Assembly: GCA_030019475.1 (NCBI GenBank)
Contig: JASEER010000010.1
Coordinates: 24,001-62,625, forward strand
Direction of reading: 5' to 3'
Origin: Thermoanaerobacterales bacterium
GTDB taxonomy: Bacteria > Bacillota > Desulfotomaculia > Desulfotomaculales > JASEER01
Length of the DNA: 38,625 nucleotides
Shown: positions 1 through 22,877 of the stretch, in pieces
Position numbering within the stretch: the stretch's first letter is position 1
How the letters are laid out: each line of letters starts with the position of its first letter
Made by a program: the position numbers and the translations under genes
The notes under the pieces: model-generated
Databases searched by the model: none
What the model was told of the DNA's origin: nothing
What the model saw: the letters and a program-made list of their open reading frames with translations, nothing else

Positions 1-293
1 CCATGCCCGACGGCGGCAGGTTGAGGATCGAAACGTCGCACAGCCGGGAATGGGTGAAGGCCGTCTTCGAGGATACGGGGCAAGGGGTGCCGCCCGACGT
101 CCTGCCTCACATCTTCGAACCTTACGTCACCACCAGGGAACAGGAAGGCGGGCACGGGTTGGGCCTGGCCATTTCGCACCAGATCATAGGCGTCCACGGG
201 GGACGCATGAAAGCCGAGAGTGAGGTCGGGAAAGGGACGAGAATCTTCATATACCTGCCAGCCAGGGGAGGCGACGCAGGCGATGCCGCCTAG
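1..293 (+). CDS. Sensor histidine kinase, C-terminal ATPase part (5' truncated by window edge)
   Basis: Only the last ~96 residues are in the window; the gene enters from the left edge. They form the end of a HATPase_c domain: the G1 box DTGQG, an F box with HIFEPYVTT, and the G2 box GHGLGLA, followed by the usual closing strand ending in FIYLP. The phosphoacceptor histidine and the sensor region lie outside the window, so the stimulus is unknown. The stop overlaps the start of the following response regulator, so kinase and regulator are translationally coupled and probably form a pair. The NtrC-type regulator at 1442-2791 has a receiver very like that of the neighbouring regulator and could be a second target (inference). 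Confidence 0.9.
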   Translation, partial: MPDGGRLRIETSHSREWVKAVFEDTGQGVPPDVLPHIFEPYVTTREQEGGHGLGLAISHQIIGVHGGRMKAESEVGKGTRIFIYLPARGGDAGDAA

Positions 294-675
294 GATACTG
301 ATTATCGACGATGAGGAAGAGATGTGCTGGGCCCTGGCCCGGGCCATGGGCAAGGAGGGGTACACTGTCACCACGGTCACCAATCCGCGCCAGGGGCTTG
401 AAATGTTCAGGCGGGACGGGGCGGACACCGTGCTGCTGGACCTGGTGATGCCCGAAATGGACGGTCTGACCCTCCTGAGACATATCCGGACCATCGACCA
501 TAAGGTGCCGGTGATTATGATCACCGGACACGGTTCGCTGGAGAACGCTCTCGACCTGGTGACCGCCGGGGCTACGGGTTACGTTACCAAGCCCTTTAAC
601 GTCAAGGATATTCGGGAAATCGTAAGGCGCCTGTTGCAGGGCAAGGGGGGCAGCGGCTGTGTGGAAGCTGATTAG
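283..675 (+). CDS. Receiver-only response regulator (CheY-like)
   Basis: A 130-residue protein made only of a receiver domain. It starts PRILIIDDEEEM (acidic pair DD), has the phosphoacceptor aspartate in TVLLDLVMPEMDG, the conserved threonine/serine region PVIMITGHGS and the lysine in VTKPFN. No output domain follows. The ATG at 283 was chosen because it overlaps the kinase stop, has AGGGGAGG about 12 bases upstream, and gives an N-terminus matching the homologous NtrC-type protein; an in-frame start at 220 only adds sequence shadowing the kinase. It may act as a phosphate sink or relay between the kinase and the sigma-54 activator (inference). Confidence 0.9.
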   Translation: MPPRILIIDDEEEMCWALARAMGKEGYTVTTVTNPRQGLEMFRRDGADTVLLDLVMPEMDGLTLLRHIRTIDHKVPVIMITGHGSLENALDLVTAGATGYVTKPFNVKDIREIVRRLLQGKGGSGCVEAD

Positions 676-1441: not shown

Positions 1442-2791
1442 TCACTTCAACCCGTACTTCTGCATTTTGAATAGGAGGGTCGTGCGGGCAATACCCAGCT
1501 TCTTTGCCGCCCTGCTCCTGTTCCCGCCGCATTCGGCCAGGGCCCTGGCGATCAGTTCCGCCTCCATGTTCTTCAACGTGGACCCCTCGGGCAGGGATGC
1601 CGGTACCAGTTTGTTCCGCAGGAGCCCCCCGGCCGGGTGAAACTCGTGCGGCAAATGGTCGGGTCCGATCACCCCGTCGGTGCTTAAGATCACAGCCCGT
1701 TCCAGCACGTTTTGCAGTTCACGGACGTTCCCCGGCCAGTCGTAGGCCAGGAGCAGTTCCATCGCCTCTTCGGAGATGCGGCATCCCCGGTTCGCCGGGC
1801 AGAACTTCTCCAGGAAATGGGCGGCCAGGAGAGGGATATCCTCGCGGCGCTCCCGCAGGGGCGGGAGATGGATGCGGATGACGTTCAGACGGTAGAAGAG
1901 GTCTTCGCGGAACTTCCCCTCTTTGACCGCTTTCTCCAGGTCCTTGTTCGTCGCGGCGACGACCCGGATATTGACGTGCACGGGGGTGGCGCCGCCGAGG
2001 CGTTCAAAAGTATGTTCCTGGAGGACGCGCAGCAGCTTGGCCTGCATTGTCGGGGACATCTCCGCGATCTCGTCCAGAAAAATGGTGCCGTTGTCGGCAA
2101 GCTCAAAGCGCCCGATGCGGCTGGATGTGGCGCCTGTAAAGGCGCCCTTTTCGTGCCCGAAAAGCTCGCTTTCGAGGAGCTGCTCGGGTATCGCCGCGCA
2201 GTTGACCGTGACGAAGGGACCCGACGCCCGCTGGCTGAGGCGGTGGATGGCTACCGCCACCACCTCTTTCCCCGTGCCGCTTTCACCCGTTACCAGCACG
2301 GTGGCGTCGGTGGGGGCGACCCGGGTGATGAGGTCGCGGATCTTAACCATGGCCGGGGTCTCGCCGATGATTCCCTGGTGATCTTTCGTCAGCTCGGAGC
2401 GCAGGTAGCCCACTTCTTCCTTCAGGCGGTTCAGCTGCAACGCCCGCTGAACCGTGATCTTCAACTGGTGGAGGTCAAACGGCTTGGCCACGTAGCCTAT
2501 GGCGCCGTTGGCCAGAGCCTCAATGGCCACCTCCAGGGTTCCGTGGCCGGTGATCATAATCACCGGCAGGTCGGGGTCGGTTTCCATGATCTTACGCAGC
2601 ACTTCCAGCCCATCTATGTCGGGCATCTTGAGGTCCAGCAGGACCAGCGAGGCCCCTTCCTCGGCCAGGATCTCAAGGCCCCTCCGGCCTTTGGTGGCGG
2701 TAGTGACCAGGTACCCCTCCTGTCGCATGGCGCGTGAAAGGGCCCAGCACATTTCCTCTTCGTCGTCGATAATCAGTATCCGGGGAATCAA
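1442..2791 (-). CDS. NtrC-family sigma-54-dependent response regulator
   Basis: 449 residues in three domains: a receiver (about 1-120; phosphoacceptor in LVLLDLKMPD, lysine in AKPFD), a sigma-54 AAA+ domain (about 135-370; Walker A GESGTGKE, the sigma-54 contact loop GAFTGA, Walker B FLDEI, arginine finger region LPPLRERREDI) and a Fis-type HTH at the C-terminus (NRSRAAKKLGIARTTLLFKM). It should activate sigma-54 promoters when phosphorylated. The TTG at 2791 is preferred: AGGAGGAGG lies 8 bases upstream (2800-2808) and the protein then starts MIPRILIIDDEEEM, like the paralogous receiver protein at 283-675. A further upstream in-frame TTG at 2818 lacks a ribosome site. Possible targets in the window are the -24/-12 promoters at 11270 and 15199 (inference). 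Confidence 0.95.
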   Translation of the reverse strand: MIPRILIIDDEEEMCWALSRAMRQEGYLVTTATKGRRGLEILAEEGASLVLLDLKMPDIDGLEVLRKIMETDPDLPVIMITGHGTLEVAIEALANGAIGYVAKPFDLHQLKITVQRALQLNRLKEEVGYLRSELTKDHQGIIGETPAMVKIRDLITRVAPTDATVLVTGESGTGKEVVAVAIHRLSQRASGPFVTVNCAAIPEQLLESELFGHEKGAFTGATSSRIGRFELADNGTIFLDEIAEMSPTMQAKLLRVLQEHTFERLGGATPVHVNIRVVAATNKDLEKAVKEGKFREDLFYRLNVIRIHLPPLRERREDIPLLAAHFLEKFCPANRGCRISEEAMELLLAYDWPGNVRELQNVLERAVILSTDGVIGPDHLPHEFHPAGGLLRNKLVPASLPEGSTLKNMEAELIARALAECGGNRSRAAKKLGIARTTLLFKMQKYGLK

Positions 2792-2951
2792 GCAGGAAAC
2801 CTCCTCCTGGACGGCCAATGTACCTTAGTTCACAAAGAGGAAGGATCTAAAGATACCGGGAGCGGAAGATCGAAGCCCTTAAACTGCCGAAAACAAGCGC
2901 AATCACTACAAAATGTGAAAGCCGGCCCGTGCAAATCTTTCGCCGAGGGTA

Positions 2952-3224: not shown

Positions 3225-3419
3225 TTGCTGGGGGAGTTGACCAGGCGGGAAGAACAGGTGATTCTCTTCATCCGGCAGCTTGGTTGGGGCGAGGTAAAGA
3301 TTAGAGTCGAAAACGGGCAACCCGTTCTTATCTATGAGGCCATCAGGACCGTACGGCTGGAAGAAGACACGCGGTCCGAGAAACCGCCCAAGGCGGCCCG
3401 ATCTCGTACAAAACCTTAA
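3225..3419 (+). CDS. YezD-like small protein (DUF2292 family)
   Basis: 64 residues starting at a TTG with GGAAGGTGAG upstream. The core (residues 8-45) fits the DUF2292/YezD pattern: an N-terminal helix, then LGWGEVKIRVENGQPV, a short beta-hairpin, ending in IRTVRLE. The family is of unknown biochemical function; its members are often found near sulfur-assimilation genes (family knowledge), which would fit the sulfur-anion theme of this window. The basic tail after residue 50 (KPPKAARSRTKP) is probably disordered. A strong terminator follows at 3443, so it is a single-gene transcript with an unusually long leader. Confidence 0.7.
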   Translation: MLGELTRREEQVILFIRQLGWGEVKIRVENGQPVLIYEAIRTVRLEEDTRSEKPPKAARSRTKP

Positions 3420-3442: not shown

Positions 3443-3478
3443 AGGCCGGCATTCCCCGTTGGGGGTGCCGGCCTTTTT
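3443..3478 (+). terminator. Rho-independent terminator after the YezD-like gene
   Basis: Stem arms AGGCCGGCA and TGCCGGCCT flank a loop that can itself pair (CCCC/GGGG), and are followed by TTTTTAT. Confidence 0.9.
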
Positions 3479-3566
3479 ATATATACCCTTCATTTCAAGC
3501 TGAAGATATCTGACCGCGGTTCCTTCTCGCCCCGGGTTGCACCAAGCGCTGGGAGGGATGAACGAC

Positions 3567-4436
3567 GTGCGCCAGAATGCCGAAAAGATGCTGGCCATCC
3601 TGCTGGAACACCCGGACGGCCCGCCGACGGCCGAGCAGGTCGAGGCCCGCTACGGGATCAAACGGCAAACCTATTACCACTGGAAGCGCAAGTTAACCAG
3701 GGCGGGCCTGGACCTCTTACGGAGGTCCTTGGAGCAGCAGGACCAGCAGGCCGAACTGATCCGCCAAAATGAACTCTTAAAGAAAAAAGTGGAGCGCCTG
3801 GAACAGATGAAACTGGGGTGGGAGCTTCGCTTCAAGTGGCTCTGGTGGCAGCTTGAGGCCTACAGGGGAACGGATTTCCAATCCTATCTCCGGACTCTCA
3901 AGAGACAATTGCCCCCGGTGACGGGCGGCGAAAGGGATACTGTTCAGCCTGGATTCAGCGTAGAAGACAGGGAGGTGAGCGTGTTGGAGGAAAAGAAGGT
4001 CCGGGACATTATGGTCGCCCAGCCGGACAGTTTCATTGTCGGTCCGGAACACACGATGCGCCACGTGGTGGCCAGCTTCGCGCGCTACGGGGGTGACGAT
4101 TGCCTGGCCCTGGTCGTCAAGGAAGGCCAGGTAATCGGGCTGCTGACGGTGATGGATATCCTCCAGGCTATCCAGCCCCCCTACACCAGGTTCTTCAGCG
4201 GTCCCGAGGTCTATTGGGACGGCCTTTTCAGCCAGCGCGTGCGCAACGTCAGCCATCTGAAGGTCTGGGACTTTATGCGGCCCGTTGTCGCCGTCGGCCC
4301 CGACGATCCCCTGATGAAGGTGTCCAATATCCTGGCCAAGCACAAAACCGAGATCGTCCCGGTGATGGACGGCGACAAGCTGGTCGGCGTCGTCCGCGTC
4401 CAGGACATGTTCAGGACGATCGCCGAGGTGGTCTAA
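3567..4436 (+). CDS. HTH / coiled-coil protein fused in frame to a CBS-domain pair
   Basis: One uninterrupted frame of 289 residues. The N-terminal part (about 1-60) is a helix-turn-helix of the kind seen in transposase-like or regulatory proteins (EARYGIKRQTYYHWKRKL), followed by a charged coiled coil (about 60-100). A low-complexity linker leads to two CBS domains (about 142-200 and 230-285), which bind adenosine nucleotides in other proteins. The CBS part begins EEKKVRDIM, very like the separate CBS protein at 6043-6564. GTG at 3567 was chosen since GGGAGGG lies 9 bases upstream; ATG 3558 directly abuts that ribosome site. A second strong ribosome site at 3970-3978 precedes an in-frame GTG at 3981, so a CBS-only product is likely. 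It may be a nucleotide-responsive DNA-binding regulator, or two genes merged by loss of a stop. Confidence 0.8.
   Translation: MRQNAEKMLAILLEHPDGPPTAEQVEARYGIKRQTYYHWKRKLTRAGLDLLRRSLEQQDQQAELIRQNELLKKKVERLEQMKLGWELRFKWLWWQLEAYRGTDFQSYLRTLKRQLPPVTGGERDTVQPGFSVEDREVSVLEEKKVRDIMVAQPDSFIVGPEHTMRHVVASFARYGGDDCLALVVKEGQVIGLLTVMDILQAIQPPYTRFFSGPEVYWDGLFSQRVRNVSHLKVWDFMRPVVAVGPDDPLMKVSNILAKHKTEIVPVMDGDKLVGVVRVQDMFRTIAEVV
3970..3983 (+). promoter_or_regulatory. Internal ribosome site and GTG start inside the HTH-CBS gene
   Basis: GGGAGGTGA (3970-3978), close to the full anti-16S complement, stands 5 bases before an in-frame GTG at 3981 (a TTG follows at 3984). Initiation here would give a ~151-residue CBS-pair protein starting like the paralogue at 6564. 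Confidence 0.6.
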
Positions 4437-4520: not shown

Positions 4521-5945
4521 CTAGCGTGTGGCCCGTGCCGCCCGCACCGCCCCGGAGGGCTCATGCTGCGCGGCGATTATCCGCCGGGAGAGGATGCTCA
4601 GGAGCAGACCGACGGCGACGGCCAGCGCGAGGACGACCAGAATGGCGGTGGCCGTATGCATATACCACCACAGGAGCAGGTAGCCGGTGCTGATCACGAT
4701 GGACATCAGCATCAGGGGGAAGGCGATCTTAAAGAAGCTCATAAAGGTGATGGGCTGCCCGCGTTTCTCGGCCATCCCGATGACGACGACGTTGGCCGAA
4801 GCGCCGATGATCGTGCCGTTACCGCCCAGGCAGGCCCCCAGCGACAGCGACCACCACAGGAAGTTCAGGGACTCGATGGGGATGTTGCCGATCGCCCCCA
4901 TGTCCTTGATCAGGGGAATCATGGTGGCCACAAACGGGATATTGTCCACGAAGGCCGAGGCGATGGCGGACACCCAGAGGATGATCATGCCGGTGGGCAC
5001 GATGGCCCCGCCGGTGGCATCCATGACCCTCTCGGCCAGCATCTTGATGACACCGACCTCCTCCAGGCCGCCGACGATGACGAAGAGCCCGATGAAGAAG
5101 AAGATCACCGGCCACTCCACCTGCTGCAGGGGATGCTCCGGTTCCGCCCGGGTGACCAGGAGCAGGAGGCTGGCGCCGGCCAGGGCGATAACGCTGGATT
5201 CCATGTGCAGGTACTGGTGCATGAGGAAACCGGCGATGACCAGGCCGATGACGACCAGGCACTTCTTGAGCAGGGGGATATTCCTCAGCTCGGCGCGCTC
5301 ATCGAAGTCGAAGATGCGCAGCCGCACGTCCTCGCTCACCCGGAGCTTCTTACGGTAAAGAAGCTGCATGATGAAGATGGTCGTGACGTGGACGAGGATG
5401 ATGACGGACGTCAGGTTGATAACGAAGTCCAGGAACCCGAGGTGGGTGGCGCTGCCGATCATGATGTTCGGCGGGTCGCCAATCAGGGTGGCGGTGCCCC
5501 CGATATTGGAAGAGAGGATTTCGGCGATCAAAAAGGGTATGGGGCTTAGCTCCAGCTTACGGGCGATGGCGAAGGTAACGGGCACCACCAGCAGCACGGT
5601 CGTAACGTTGTCCAGGAAGGCCGACAGGATGGCGGTCACGCCGGCGAGAGAGGCGAGAATGGCCAGGGGCTGGCCCTTGGCCAGCTTGGCGGCCTTGATG
5701 GCCAGGAACTCGAAGACGCCGGTCTCGCGGGTGATGCCGACAATAATCATCATGCCGACCAACAGGCCGATCGTGTTCCAGTCAACCGCTTCCACGGCGG
5801 TTTCCGGCGTCAGGATGCCGGCGATGACCAGCACCGAGGCGCCGCAGAAGGCGGCCACGGCACGGTGGATCTTCTCCGAGACGATGATGGCATAGGTTAT
5901 CAGGAAGATGGCCGTAGCCACAAATACCTGGGTGGATTCTGTCAT
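4521..5945 (-). CDS. NhaD/ArsB-type (ion transporter superfamily) membrane protein, paralogue 1
   Basis: 474 residues, almost entirely hydrophobic, with about 11-12 membrane helices. Family signatures are the amphipathic start FLITYAIIVSEKIHRA, the re-entrant-type motif AFLDNVTTVLL, the GGTATLIGDPPNIMIGSA segment and a second inverted-repeat half with AFVDNIPFVATMIPL and GNGTIIGASANVV. These mark the ArsB/NhaD Na+/H+ or anion transporter families; the substrate cannot be read from sequence, and arsenic genes are absent. The start ATG has GGGAGATG upstream. A close paralogue (about three quarters identical by eye) lies in the opposite orientation at 18137-19582. A good sigma-A promoter precedes it. 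Confidence 0.9.
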   Translation of the reverse strand: MTESTQVFVATAIFLITYAIIVSEKIHRAVAAFCGASVLVIAGILTPETAVEAVDWNTIGLLVGMMIIVGITRETGVFEFLAIKAAKLAKGQPLAILASLAGVTAILSAFLDNVTTVLLVVPVTFAIARKLELSPIPFLIAEILSSNIGGTATLIGDPPNIMIGSATHLGFLDFVINLTSVIILVHVTTIFIMQLLYRKKLRVSEDVRLRIFDFDERAELRNIPLLKKCLVVIGLVIAGFLMHQYLHMESSVIALAGASLLLLVTRAEPEHPLQQVEWPVIFFFIGLFVIVGGLEEVGVIKMLAERVMDATGGAIVPTGMIILWVSAIASAFVDNIPFVATMIPLIKDMGAIGNIPIESLNFLWWSLSLGACLGGNGTIIGASANVVVIGMAEKRGQPITFMSFFKIAFPLMLMSIVISTGYLLLWWYMHTATAILVVLALAVAVGLLLSILSRRIIAAQHEPSGAVRAARATR

Positions 5946-6042: not shown

Positions 6043-6564
6043 TTAGAGAACGGCGTCGGCGACGGCCTTGAAGACCTCGTTCATGCGCACCATGCCAACG
6101 ATGACCCCGTTTTCCATCACGGGGACCGACCCGATGTTGGCGGTCAGCATCAGGTGAATCGCCTTGAGAAGCGGGGCGTCAGCATCGACCGTGATCAGTT
6201 CCAGGGGACGCATGACTTCGGACGCCGGCTTCTGGGCTTCGGCCCGGCTGCGCTGCTCAAAGAACCCCTCCCACGGCACGTCGGGGACGTCGACCTCCCA
6301 GGGGAGTCCCCGGGGGAGCTTGTCGGCGTCGAGCAGCTGCGGTTCCACCGCCCTGATCAGGTCGCGGTAGGTGAGCAGCCCGACCAGGCGCCGCTGTCCG
6401 TCAAGGACCAGCACCGACCGGTGCCCCGTGTACTCCCCGGTCGGCAATTGCTTAAAGGAAGAGGCGACGGCGGCGACGGCCTCCCTAACGGTTGCATTCT
6501 GGGGAACGGTGGCGTACTCCTCGATAGGGATCATAAGGTCGCGAACCTTCTTTTCCTTCGGCAC
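6043..6564 (-). CDS. CBS-domain pair protein
   Basis: 173 residues with two CBS domains (about 8-70 and 115-172). It starts MPKEKKVRDLM and ends VRMNEVFKAVADAVL. Between the domains it carries a WEGFFEQR segment matching WDGLFSQR in the CBS part of the gene at 3567, so the two are paralogues. CBS pairs sense AMP/ATP/SAM-like ligands; having such proteins next to SLC13/ArsB-type transporters suggests control of transport or of a partner (inference). The GTG at 6564 was chosen: GGGGAGGG (6571-6578) lies 6 bases upstream and the start aligns with the paralogue; the longer frame to 6642 has no support. It lies 111 bases downstream of the SLC13 gene and is probably co-transcribed with it. Confidence 0.88.
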   Translation of the reverse strand: MPKEKKVRDLMIPIEEYATVPQNATVREAVAAVASSFKQLPTGEYTGHRSVLVLDGQRRLVGLLTYRDLIRAVEPQLLDADKLPRGLPWEVDVPDVPWEGFFEQRSRAEAQKPASEVMRPLELITVDADAPLLKAIHLMLTANIGSVPVMENGVIVGMVRMNEVFKAVADAVL

Positions 6565-6675: not shown

Positions 6676-8190
6676 TTACTTAAGCAGGGCGGGCATCCCC
6701 ATCAGCGGCCAGATCACGAGGATCATAATGGCCAGGATACCCAGCGTAAGGACGGACGGGATGAGCCCGTAGGTGAAGAACTCCCCGGTCGTGAACTGCT
6801 TGGACTGGTAGGCGATGGCGTTGGGCGCCGCGCCGATCAGCAGTATATAAGGTACGGATGCCATCGAGGTGGCCGCGAAAAGGATCATCTCCGGGTTGAT
6901 CCCCAGGTACTTGCTTACCACCAGCGCGATGGGCAGGGTGATGGCGATGGCGGCCACGTTCATAATGAAGTTCGTCAGCATCATCACCAGGAACGAGATA
7001 GCCAGGACGAACACCAGCCAGTGGGAGTTCACGAACAGGCTCAGGAAGTTCACGGCCATCCACTCGGCGGCGCCCGTCTTCCAGAGGCAGAACCCGATGC
7101 TCATCGCGCCCGCGAAGAGGAGGATGATGTTCCAGGAGATCTTGTGTTCCAAATCCTTCACGTCAAAGAAGCGGAAGAGGAAGAACACCAGTCCGCCGAG
7201 GAGAAGGAGGACACTGCGGTTGATACCCGACAGGGCGGGGACAAATTGCTGCACGACCAGCAGGCCCAGGACGATGGCGGTCACGACTGCGACAAAGATC
7301 TCCTGCCTGGTGATGGGCCCCATCTGCGCGGCCATGGCCTTAACCTTCTCCCGCACGCCCTCGATACGCGTCTTCTCCGGCCGGAAGAGGAGAATGCAGA
7401 GGAGCCATACCATCACGACGAGAACGATACCCAGGGGGAACATATACTTGGAGAACGCCAGGAAGGTCACCGTCTCCCCGGTGAATTCCTGGTACATCCC
7501 GACCGCGGCCGGGTTGCGCGCGCCGCCCATCATAGTCATCATGCTGCCGGCGCCGGCCGCCCAGGCCATCCCGATGAAGAGGCCCTTGCCGAAGCGGGTC
7601 GGCCTCTCGTCGCTGCCGTAAAGGCTCAGGATGACCATCAGGATGGGGAACATGGCCGCGGCGACGGCGGTGTGGGCCATCGCCCAGGTCATGACCATCG
7701 TGATGGCGAAAACACCGAACATTATAACGCGGGTGTCCTCGCCGGCCACCTGGATCATCCTGAAGGCCATACGCTGGGTCAGTCCGGACTTGGAGAAGGC
7801 CAGCCCGACGAAGAGCGCGCCCAGGATGAAGAGCACCGAGGGGTCCATAAAATCGTGGAAGGCGTCAGCGGCCGGGCGGATTCCCCACAGCCCCTGGAAC
7901 ACGCCGATGGCAATGGCCGTAACGCCGATCGGTACAACCTCGAAAACCCACCAGATGCCGGCCATCAGGAACAGGCCGATGGCGCGCTGGCCCTGCTGGG
8001 TGAGGGCGAATTCCTTTCCGCCCGGATCGACCGCCGGGGCGAAGGGAGGCAGGAAGTAGAAGAGGAAAAAGGCTCCCAGTCCCAGGGCGATGAAAAAGAT
8101 CCGGCGCCAGTCAATTGTAGTGCTCGGTGCCGTCATCTCCTTCACGCCGGCCAACCTTTTCTGTTCAACCGCAGTAGCATTGCTCGCCAA
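6676..8190 (-). CDS. SLC13/DASS-family sodium:anion symporter
   Basis: 504 residues with about 11-13 membrane helices. The DASS features are the early IGLFLMAGIWWVFEVVPIGVTA segment, the first-half motif MMTMMGGARNPAAVGMY, the TNFIMNVAAIAITLPIA segment of the second half and the PYILLIGAAPNAIAY motif. Known relatives import dicarboxylates, tricarboxylates or sulfate with sodium; the substrate here is not readable. The TTG at 8190 is preferred over ATG 8208 because AGAGGTGAT lies just upstream with correct spacing, whereas nothing suitable precedes the ATG. Soluble N-terminal ~25 residues precede the first helix. It probably leads an operon with the CBS protein downstream. Confidence 0.9.
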   Translation of the reverse strand: MASNATAVEQKRLAGVKEMTAPSTTIDWRRIFFIALGLGAFFLFYFLPPFAPAVDPGGKEFALTQQGQRAIGLFLMAGIWWVFEVVPIGVTAIAIGVFQGLWGIRPAADAFHDFMDPSVLFILGALFVGLAFSKSGLTQRMAFRMIQVAGEDTRVIMFGVFAITMVMTWAMAHTAVAAAMFPILMVILSLYGSDERPTRFGKGLFIGMAWAAGAGSMMTMMGGARNPAAVGMYQEFTGETVTFLAFSKYMFPLGIVLVVMVWLLCILLFRPEKTRIEGVREKVKAMAAQMGPITRQEIFVAVVTAIVLGLLVVQQFVPALSGINRSVLLLLGGLVFFLFRFFDVKDLEHKISWNIILLFAGAMSIGFCLWKTGAAEWMAVNFLSLFVNSHWLVFVLAISFLVMMLTNFIMNVAAIAITLPIALVVSKYLGINPEMILFAATSMASVPYILLIGAAPNAIAYQSKQFTTGEFFTYGLIPSVLTLGILAIMILVIWPLMGMPALLK

Positions 8191-8295
8191 GGTAATCACC
8201 TCTCTCATTAGTTAGACGGGATTGCCGGCCGCCGGGGCGGGGTCGCTCACGCGGGGCCGAAGGTGCGTTTAATGACAATTTCTTTGCGAACGCTA

Positions 8296-22202: not shown

Positions 22203-22877
22203 ATGCCGGAACAGCATGACGTGCCGCCGCGGGGAGCCTTTCTGCAGCGCGACCGGGAGACCTACGCCATCGCGCCCCGCATGGCGCCGGCCGGAATCCT
22301 GGACGTGGCCGCCCTGCGGCGGCTGGCCGATGTCGCCGAGCGGTTCAACATCCCGATCATCAAGATCGGCAACGCCCAGCGCATCGTCCTCGTCGGCCTC
22401 AAGGCGGAGCAGGTCGAGCCCGTCTGGGAGGCGCTGGGCATGGAGCCCGCTCCCGCGGTGGGGCCCTGCGTGCATTACGTGGCAGGCTGCCCGGGGACGG
22501 TTGCCTGCCGCTACGGGCAGCAGGACGCCCTCGGGCTGGCCGGGGAGATCGACCGCCGCCACATCGGCGAGGGGGAGCTGGCGGCCAAGTTCAAGATCGG
22601 TGTCTCCGGCTGCCCGTTCAACTGCTGCGAGTCCTGGCTGCGGGACTTCGGCGCCTTCGGCAAGAGCAAGGGCTGGACGGTGATTGTCGGGGGACGGGCC
22701 GGGATGCGCCCGCGCATCGGGGACAAGCTGGCCGAAAACGTGAGCGCGGAAGAGGTAATGGATCTGCTGCGGCGCACCATCGCCGCTTACAAAGAACTCG
22801 GCCGGAAGGGCGAGCGCCTGGGGACGACCATCGAGCGGGTCGGCTTCGAGGAGTTCCGGAAGCTGATCGACGCCTGA
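22203..22877 (+). CDS. Small siroheme/[4Fe-4S] sulfite- or nitrite-reductase-like protein
   Basis: 224 residues. A NirB/SirA ferredoxin-like half-domain (about 10-80) is followed by a siroheme-iron-sulfur domain with cysteines in CVHYVAGCPGTVACRYG and SGCPFNCCESWLRDFG, giving the C-x5-C ... C-x3-C spacing that ligates the siroheme-coupled cluster. The size and domain plan match the monomeric low-spin assimilatory-type sulfite reductase of Desulfovibrio (about 218 residues), and not dissimilatory DsrAB. It should reduce sulfite or nitrite by six electrons, or act in siroheme handling. The ATG has AAAGGAGG upstream. The DUF2148 gene follows by 43 bases and is probably co-expressed. Confidence 0.85.
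   Translation: MPEQHDVPPRGAFLQRDRETYAIAPRMAPAGILDVAALRRLADVAERFNIPIIKIGNAQRIVLVGLKAEQVEPVWEALGMEPAPAVGPCVHYVAGCPGTVACRYGQQDALGLAGEIDRRHIGEGELAAKFKIGVSGCPFNCCESWLRDFGAFGKSKGWTVIVGGRAGMRPRIGDKLAENVSAEEVMDLLRRTIAAYKELGRKGERLGTTIERVGFEEFRKLIDA

Follow-up and report, generated by a model that had tools for sequence, protein, structure and literature searches.

Introduction

Regulators of the CcpN/EF1025 type, known from Gram-positive bacteria, are single chains with a helix-turn-helix (HTH) at the N-terminus and a CBS pair behind it, the same order of parts as in the gene described here (PMC7028823). In EF1025, a protein of 209 aa, the HTH occupies residues 6–50 and the first CBS domain begins at residue 80, and the CBS domains are reported to mediate oligomerisation (PMC7028823). 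CBS proteins also occur in gene clusters of another kind, in which DASS transporters, two-component systems and CBS proteins together serve sulfate uptake in sulfate reducers, for example Desulfosarcina variabilis (2025, PMC11887813). Within these clusters, CBS proteins have been proposed as a second, internal level of control and have been speculated to report the levels of APS, ATP or sulfate (PMC11887813). A further precedent concerns translation. Genes of the SpaO/YscQ type use an in-frame internal start to produce, besides the long form, a short C-terminal one (PMC4443714), and a curated set lists 26 Salmonella genes with in-frame internal starts (PMC11005335).

Here, we analyse a gene from a Thermoanaerobacterales genome in which an HTH-like half, a coiled coil and a CBS pair share one reading frame. 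The gene lies in a stretch of 38,625 nucleotides, henceforth termed the window. Our preferred reading, to which we give a probability of about 0.55, is a lineage-specific fusion in which an intergenic spacer became a linker, the old start of the CBS gene was kept and probably still yields some short product, and the full-length chain would be a ligand-controlled DNA-binding protein.

Architecture of the fused gene

The ORF listing contains a frame of 289 aa that runs without interruption from GTG 3567 to a TAA at 4434–4436 (Table 1). Upstream, the same frame offers ATG 3558 and TTG 3537, the latter being the mechanical start of the frame. The N-termini of the relatives in two other genomes, G001 and G049, align from about GTG 3567, and the GGGAGGG at 3551, nine bases upstream of this codon, is the Shine-Dalgarno (SD) sequence of the full-length start (-10.7 kcal/mol). 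Programmed frameshifting or readthrough was ruled out, as there is a single frame without a stop.

The original prediction, made from the sequence, had described one stop-free frame joining a DNA-binding-like half to a CBS pair, and both the ORF and the Pfam assignment of the second half bear this out. The CBS model (PF00571) reaches 61.8 bits over the whole fused protein against a cut-off of 24 and matches in two stretches, as befits a CBS pair. For HTH_Tnp_1 (PF01527), the fused protein scores 16.5 bits, below the cut-off of 24.1, and other HTH models also stay under theirs; the relatives in G001, G014 and G049 pass with 34.3, 30.8 and 29 bits. When compared with NCBIfam, the relatives of the HTH half came nearest to IS3 transposases, with scores far under the cut-off of that family.

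An AlphaFold2 model of the fused protein has a mean pLDDT of 76.3 and a pTM of 0.48, and was built on an alignment of 10 sequences whose relatives span the CBS half only, with none for the HTH half. It contains helices at residues 2–14, 22–29, 33–42, 45–99 (the long one) and 104–114, with the CBS pair after residue 140. Only two stretches fall below a pLDDT of 50, namely residues 118–139 (3918–3983 in the window), which we read as the old spacer, and residues 206–216 within the CBS half. The top 50 Foldseek matches in the PDB all concern the CBS half, led by 5awe and by structures of AcuB in which adenine nucleotides are bound. A profile search of the PDB with the HTH half returned only weak matches to coiled-coil, TetR and other proteins (best E 0.038). 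The stretch GLLTVMD in the first CBS domain fits the nucleotide-binding motif G-h-h-T-x-x-D; the equivalent stretch of the second domain, GVVRVQD, is without the T. We infer the putative nucleotide-sensing role of the protein from its membership of the CBS family.

Table 1. Positions of the features discussed, given in the window unless a locus of another genome is named
Feature	Position	Strand	Remark
Receiver-domain-only protein	220-675		
NtrC-type sigma-54 response regulator	1442..2818	-	Belongs to the cluster
Intrinsic-terminator-like hairpin	3443..3474	+	Strong; 14 pairs, then a T run; between the small upstream ORF and the fused gene
Fused HTH-coiled-coil-CBS pair gene	3567..4436	+	Open frame; start from N-terminal alignment with G001/G049 and SD GGGAGGG 3551
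HTH half	3567..3914	+	HTH (helices within residues 2-42), long helix 45-99, helix 104-114; IS3 OrfA-like HTH with W-rich coiled-coil tail
Linker	3915..3980	+	22 codons, read as former intergenic spacer; pLDDT <50 for residues 118-139
GGGAGGTGA	3970..3978	+	Read as retained Shine-Dalgarno of the CBS gene
CBS pair	3981..4436	+	151 aa from GTG 3981; start homologous to those of stand-alone CBS genes
CitMHS/ArsB-type transporter	4521..5945	-	Same cluster
Stand-alone CBS-pair paralogue	6043..6564	-	Flanked by the DASS and CitMHS transporter genes
DASS-family sodium:anion symporter	6676..8208	-	TIGR00785, 207.8 bits vs cut-off 198.6
W-rich coiled-coil ORF of G003	L065 4516-4812 (G003:C101)	-	Ahead of the CBS gene
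ProV-type ABC ATPase of G014	L067 3630-4988 (G014:C213)	+	C-terminal CBS pair
Proteins of ~235 aa	L066 12941-13648 (-); L067 2268-2990 (+), 8675-9370 (+); L069 14253-14960 (+); L107 7790-8500 (-)		

The two halves in related genomes

The whole protein was searched against 60 genomes: the one that carries it and 59 others from the order, none of these 59 belonging to its family. Matches at 1e-10 were obtained in 25 of the 60, and 20 of these 25 genomes have a CBS match with no HTH match (the exceptions are G000, G001, G003, G014 and G049). HTH-half matches among the 60 came from the window's genome, G001, G014 and G049 only; the coiled-coil part of G003 surfaced in the profile search with the HTH half, not in the whole-protein search. 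At E ≤ 1e-6, this profile had matches in five of the 113 genomes searched from the order (the window's, G001, G014, G049 and G003) and in 6 of 398 from the phylum, own included. A looser threshold of E ≤ 1e-5 gave 9 of the 113, and at E ≤ 1e-3, 5 of 18 genomes reached through loci were matched.

The long fused frame is found in the window's genome alone among the five, with 310 open codons against 110–175 in the others. Outside these five genomes, the weak profile matches come from frames 90–198 aa long, bar three of at least 250 aa, which were rejected as fusions on their translations, two being transposase-like (L072, L114) and one HD-domain-like (L116). The idea of a conserved fused family was likewise dropped, since the HTH profile revealed no other fused frame in the 113 genomes of the order, the 398 of the phylum or the 18 reached through loci. 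A scan of genome contigs, from which records of the own genome may be omitted, gave no near copy of the fused gene. Because the fused frame was found nowhere else in the genomes searched, the fusion is known here from one genome.

Two relatives keep the halves as neighbouring but separate genes. In G001, which belongs to the same order, an HTH gene (48% identity) stops at a TAA and a CBS gene (41%) begins 14 nt further on, behind AGGGGAGGG. In G003, the coiled-coil part is a separate ORF behind a TauE gene, the helix-turn-helix is absent and a CBS gene comes next, the gap being 136 nt with ATG 4379 as the start codon and 85 nt with GTG 4430 (the longest ORF). One of the two options raised in the original prediction, the fusion of two genes through loss of a stop in their spacer, agrees with this picture, in which the present linker corresponds to the old spacer; the relatives compared for a stop between the halves were split in G001 and G003, and a fused one was found nowhere else in the genomes searched. 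On the sequences compared, fusion by loss of separation is well supported for the genome as assembled.

The reverse course, in which the fused state is ancestral and was split in G001 and G003, seems to us very unlikely. The HTH or coiled-coil half does adjoin a CBS pair in three genomes of different families. However, G014 and G049 possess the HTH half without a stand-alone CBS gene directly behind it, the matching TauE locus of G028 has the CBS gene and lacks the HTH gene, and the 20 genomes with a CBS match and no HTH match count against an ancestral fusion as well. An SD and a start codon retained within the fusion likewise point to former separation. The evidence from G014 is qualified by the gene that follows its HTH gene, which encodes a ProV-type ABC ATPase ending in a CBS pair (60 bits); in G049, no CBS gene was found in the ~0.9 kb between the HTH gene and the contig end.

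Two observations concern the partners of these genes. The HTH gene of G014 also has a CBS-protein neighbour, though of another kind. G003, in retaining the coiled coil without the HTH, suggests that the coiled coil, not DNA binding, pairs with the CBS protein.

Linker and junction

The linker begins behind RQLP, the conserved residues that close the HTH half. Its GC content by codon position is 0.68/0.50/0.64, compared with 0.61/0.35/0.78 and 0.66/0.33/0.86 in the flanks. Of 10548 equally sized coding windows, 812 (7.7%) show values this flat, and the signal is therefore a hint only that the linker was once non-coding spacer.

The +1 frame contains a TGA immediately after the RQLP end, so that adding or removing a single base in the junction's CCCCC run could give separate genes, the HTH gene ending at the homologous place. 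The fused frame could accordingly be an artefact, caused by an indel introduced during sequencing or assembly or by a variant present in part of the population, with the genes truly separate as in G001. The draft state of the genome (87 contigs) and the presence of only one genome of the family in the sample leave some room for this explanation, but the C run is just five bases long and the adjoining DASS, CitMHS and paralogue CBS genes are intact frames. Moreover, the chance that 22 codons of the linker's composition contain no stop is 42%, which would make a real fusion by a single change easy. We regard an artefact as improbable.

Origin of the CBS half and the internal ribosome site

A tree of CBS proteins was built from 32 sequences, a subset of the matches, with the sequence from G058 cut after an upstream stop. 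The CBS half of the fused protein falls in a clade (100/98) with the HTH-adjacent CBS protein of G001 and three proteins of G028 encoded in one cluster, and its exact sister is weakly supported (92/68). The coiled-coil-adjacent CBS protein of G003 lies outside this clade in a poorly resolved position. Aligned starts read VLEEKKVRDIM (3981), VPKEKKVRDLM (6564, the minus-strand paralogue) and MISEKRVRDIM (G001), and the original prediction that the CBS half begins like the paralogue at 6564 thus agrees with the alignment. Because the start codons of the CBS proteins line up, GTG 3981 is in all likelihood the codon at which the CBS gene once began.

The predicted GGGAGGTGA at 3970 and in-frame GTG at 3981 are both present as described, with GTG 3981–3983 standing 3' of GGGAGGTGA. 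The 3' end of the genome's own 16S rRNA, GGATCACCTCCTTTCT, was used as the anti-SD tail for duplex energies. (The 16S rRNA match G000:C12:41215-42956, on the minus strand, has 1742 bases for a model of 1533 positions and seemingly holds ~200 extra bases.) The internal SD pairs with this tail at -12.2 kcal/mol, the lowest value among 548 internal in-frame ATG, GTG and TTG codons of the window and tied only with the adjacent TTG 3984; these candidates derive from 27 putative ORFs, some of which may not be genuine. An SD and a start codon thus stand in frame at a domain boundary, as in internal-start genes, and a second, short CBS product from GTG 3981 is plausible from this retained pair, at about even odds.

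It is also possible, although we rate it clearly below even odds, that the fusion has one product, a full-length HTH-CBS regulator, and that the internal SD and GTG are unused relics. The predicted mean unpaired probability at the internal start is 0.24, a low accessibility for a fairly structured site. Higher values were obtained for 84% of 476 internal positions and for 12 of 13 gene starts, one of these 12 being the start of the HTH half (0.25). The HTH half, moreover, has a good SD of its own, and one-chain HTH-CBS regulators are known in CcpN and EF1025 (PMC7028823).

Comparable internal sites also exist elsewhere in the genome. The pattern GGAGGTGA-N1-6-RTG (ATG/GTG) gave 43 match rows in the 2.28 Mb genome versus 8 for a reversed control. 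Context was read for 28 such rows (25 distinct sites) from 30 fetched loci. The frame is shut at most seven codons upstream in 15 of the 28, which is the pattern of a gene start, and four are in-frame sites preceded by 100 or more open codons and followed by 60 or more (L080, L084, L087, which holds the site of the window, and L098); the site in L080 shares an identical 13-mer with that of the window. Since other long frames of the genome carry such internal SD sites, the internal site is not unique to the fused gene.

What speaks against a single product is that SD and GTG are both kept within a short linker. When the linker was recoded synonymously with its amino acids fixed, an equally strong SD arose in 127 of 5000 draws, and an equally strong SD together with the GTG was retained in 51 of 5000. 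Yet a recent fusion would retain both without selection, so their retention weighs only weakly against a single product.

Gene neighbourhood

On the same contig, upstream of the window, lie a TauE gene, a gene for a 236-aa protein and a HisKA/HATPase_c histidine kinase gene that runs into the window. A DASS transporter, a histidine kinase with response regulator, and CBS proteins therefore stand side by side around the fused gene, as in clusters of the sulfate-uptake type. G001 encodes DASS-type and CitMHS-type transporters, a histidine kinase, a sigma-54 regulator, TauE and three CBS proteins within 16 kb, and G028 has a like set in 19 kb, with no sigma-54 regulator noticed there. The cluster resembles published sulfate-uptake clusters, with sulfate as its putative substrate by analogy; dsrA was detected above cut-off in the genome of this sulfate-reducer-like bacterium, which fits the sulfate-transport reading.

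Several further observations were made around the locus. ORF 22203-22877 (+), of 224 aa, matches the dissimilatory sulfite reductase family weakly; it was considered as a frameshifted sulfite-reductase-like gene, and hence as a sign of assembly error, and this was rejected, as the ORF is a single open frame that is split only in the dsrA match. Upstream of the fused gene, a 64-aa ORF (3225-3419, +) shows a weak DUF2292 match (13.4 bits against a cut-off of 22), and a similar ORF precedes the HTH gene of G049 (L013 1132-1383, +). In five places (Table 1), the gene behind a long TauE-type gene encodes a protein of ~235 aa; the two copies scanned, in L107 and L066, matched nothing in Pfam or NCBIfam at 1e-3.

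Proposed origin and function

In our preferred reading of a fusion that kept its internal start, a gene for an HTH/coiled-coil protein and a CBS-pair gene of a sulfate-uptake-type cluster would have merged by loss of a stop or by a frame shift, and the intergenic spacer would have turned into a flexible linker of 22 codons. Dimerised through its coiled coil, the HTH half may bind DNA, and an adenosyl ligand may be sensed by the CBS pair. Two proteins that formerly interacted or were co-regulated would then act as one ligand-controlled regulator of the adjoining transporter genes. A CBS-controlled DNA-binding regulator of the cluster's transporters is the likely role, with DNA binding, ligand and target all putative.

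The old SD and GTG of the CBS gene survive in frame, so some stand-alone CBS protein is probably still made, and this 151-aa protein from the internal start could pair with the full-length form. The isoforms envisaged in the original prediction are compatible with the fusion, not opposed to it. More tentatively, and somewhat short of an even chance, one frame may yield both an HTH-CBS regulator and a free CBS subunit whose ratio tunes a ligand-controlled switch on the sulfate-transporter genes. The locus has the look of a recent fusion in which the internal ribosome site was preserved. Its link to a DNA-binding half suggests that this CBS pair, at least, has a transcription regulator as its partner, and a relative in which the HTH and CBS proteins are separate offers a concrete pair for study.

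Comparison with known systems

The order of domains is that of CcpN-type regulators, although the HTH of the fused protein scores under the curated cut-offs, and an NCBIfam scan at E ≤ 0.1 returned no CcpN-named family for this protein. Unlike EF1025, it has an IS3 OrfA-like HTH, behind which come a long coiled coil and then a linker of 22 residues, and its gene lies in a sulfate-uptake-type cluster. The HTH resembles that of IS3-family OrfA (PF01527), whose cut-off three relatives of this half pass, but in contrast to OrfA it is followed by a conserved W-rich coiled-coil tail. By inspection of the translations listed around the HTH genes, no transposase-like partner ORF was seen.

Like the clusters of the Desulfosarcina variabilis type, the locus brings together a DASS transporter, a two-component system and several CBS-domain proteins (PMC11887813). 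The response regulators described there are of the WalR type, whereas the present locus has a sigma-54 regulator of the NtrC type and a protein with a receiver domain alone, and the part of that report available to us does not mention an HTH-CBS fusion for the published clusters (PMC11887813). SpaO/YscQ proteins are unrelated to the window protein, and their short form is reported (PMC4443714), while the one considered here is putative. The gene is a variant assembled from known parts, namely HTH-CBS regulators and in-frame internal starts.
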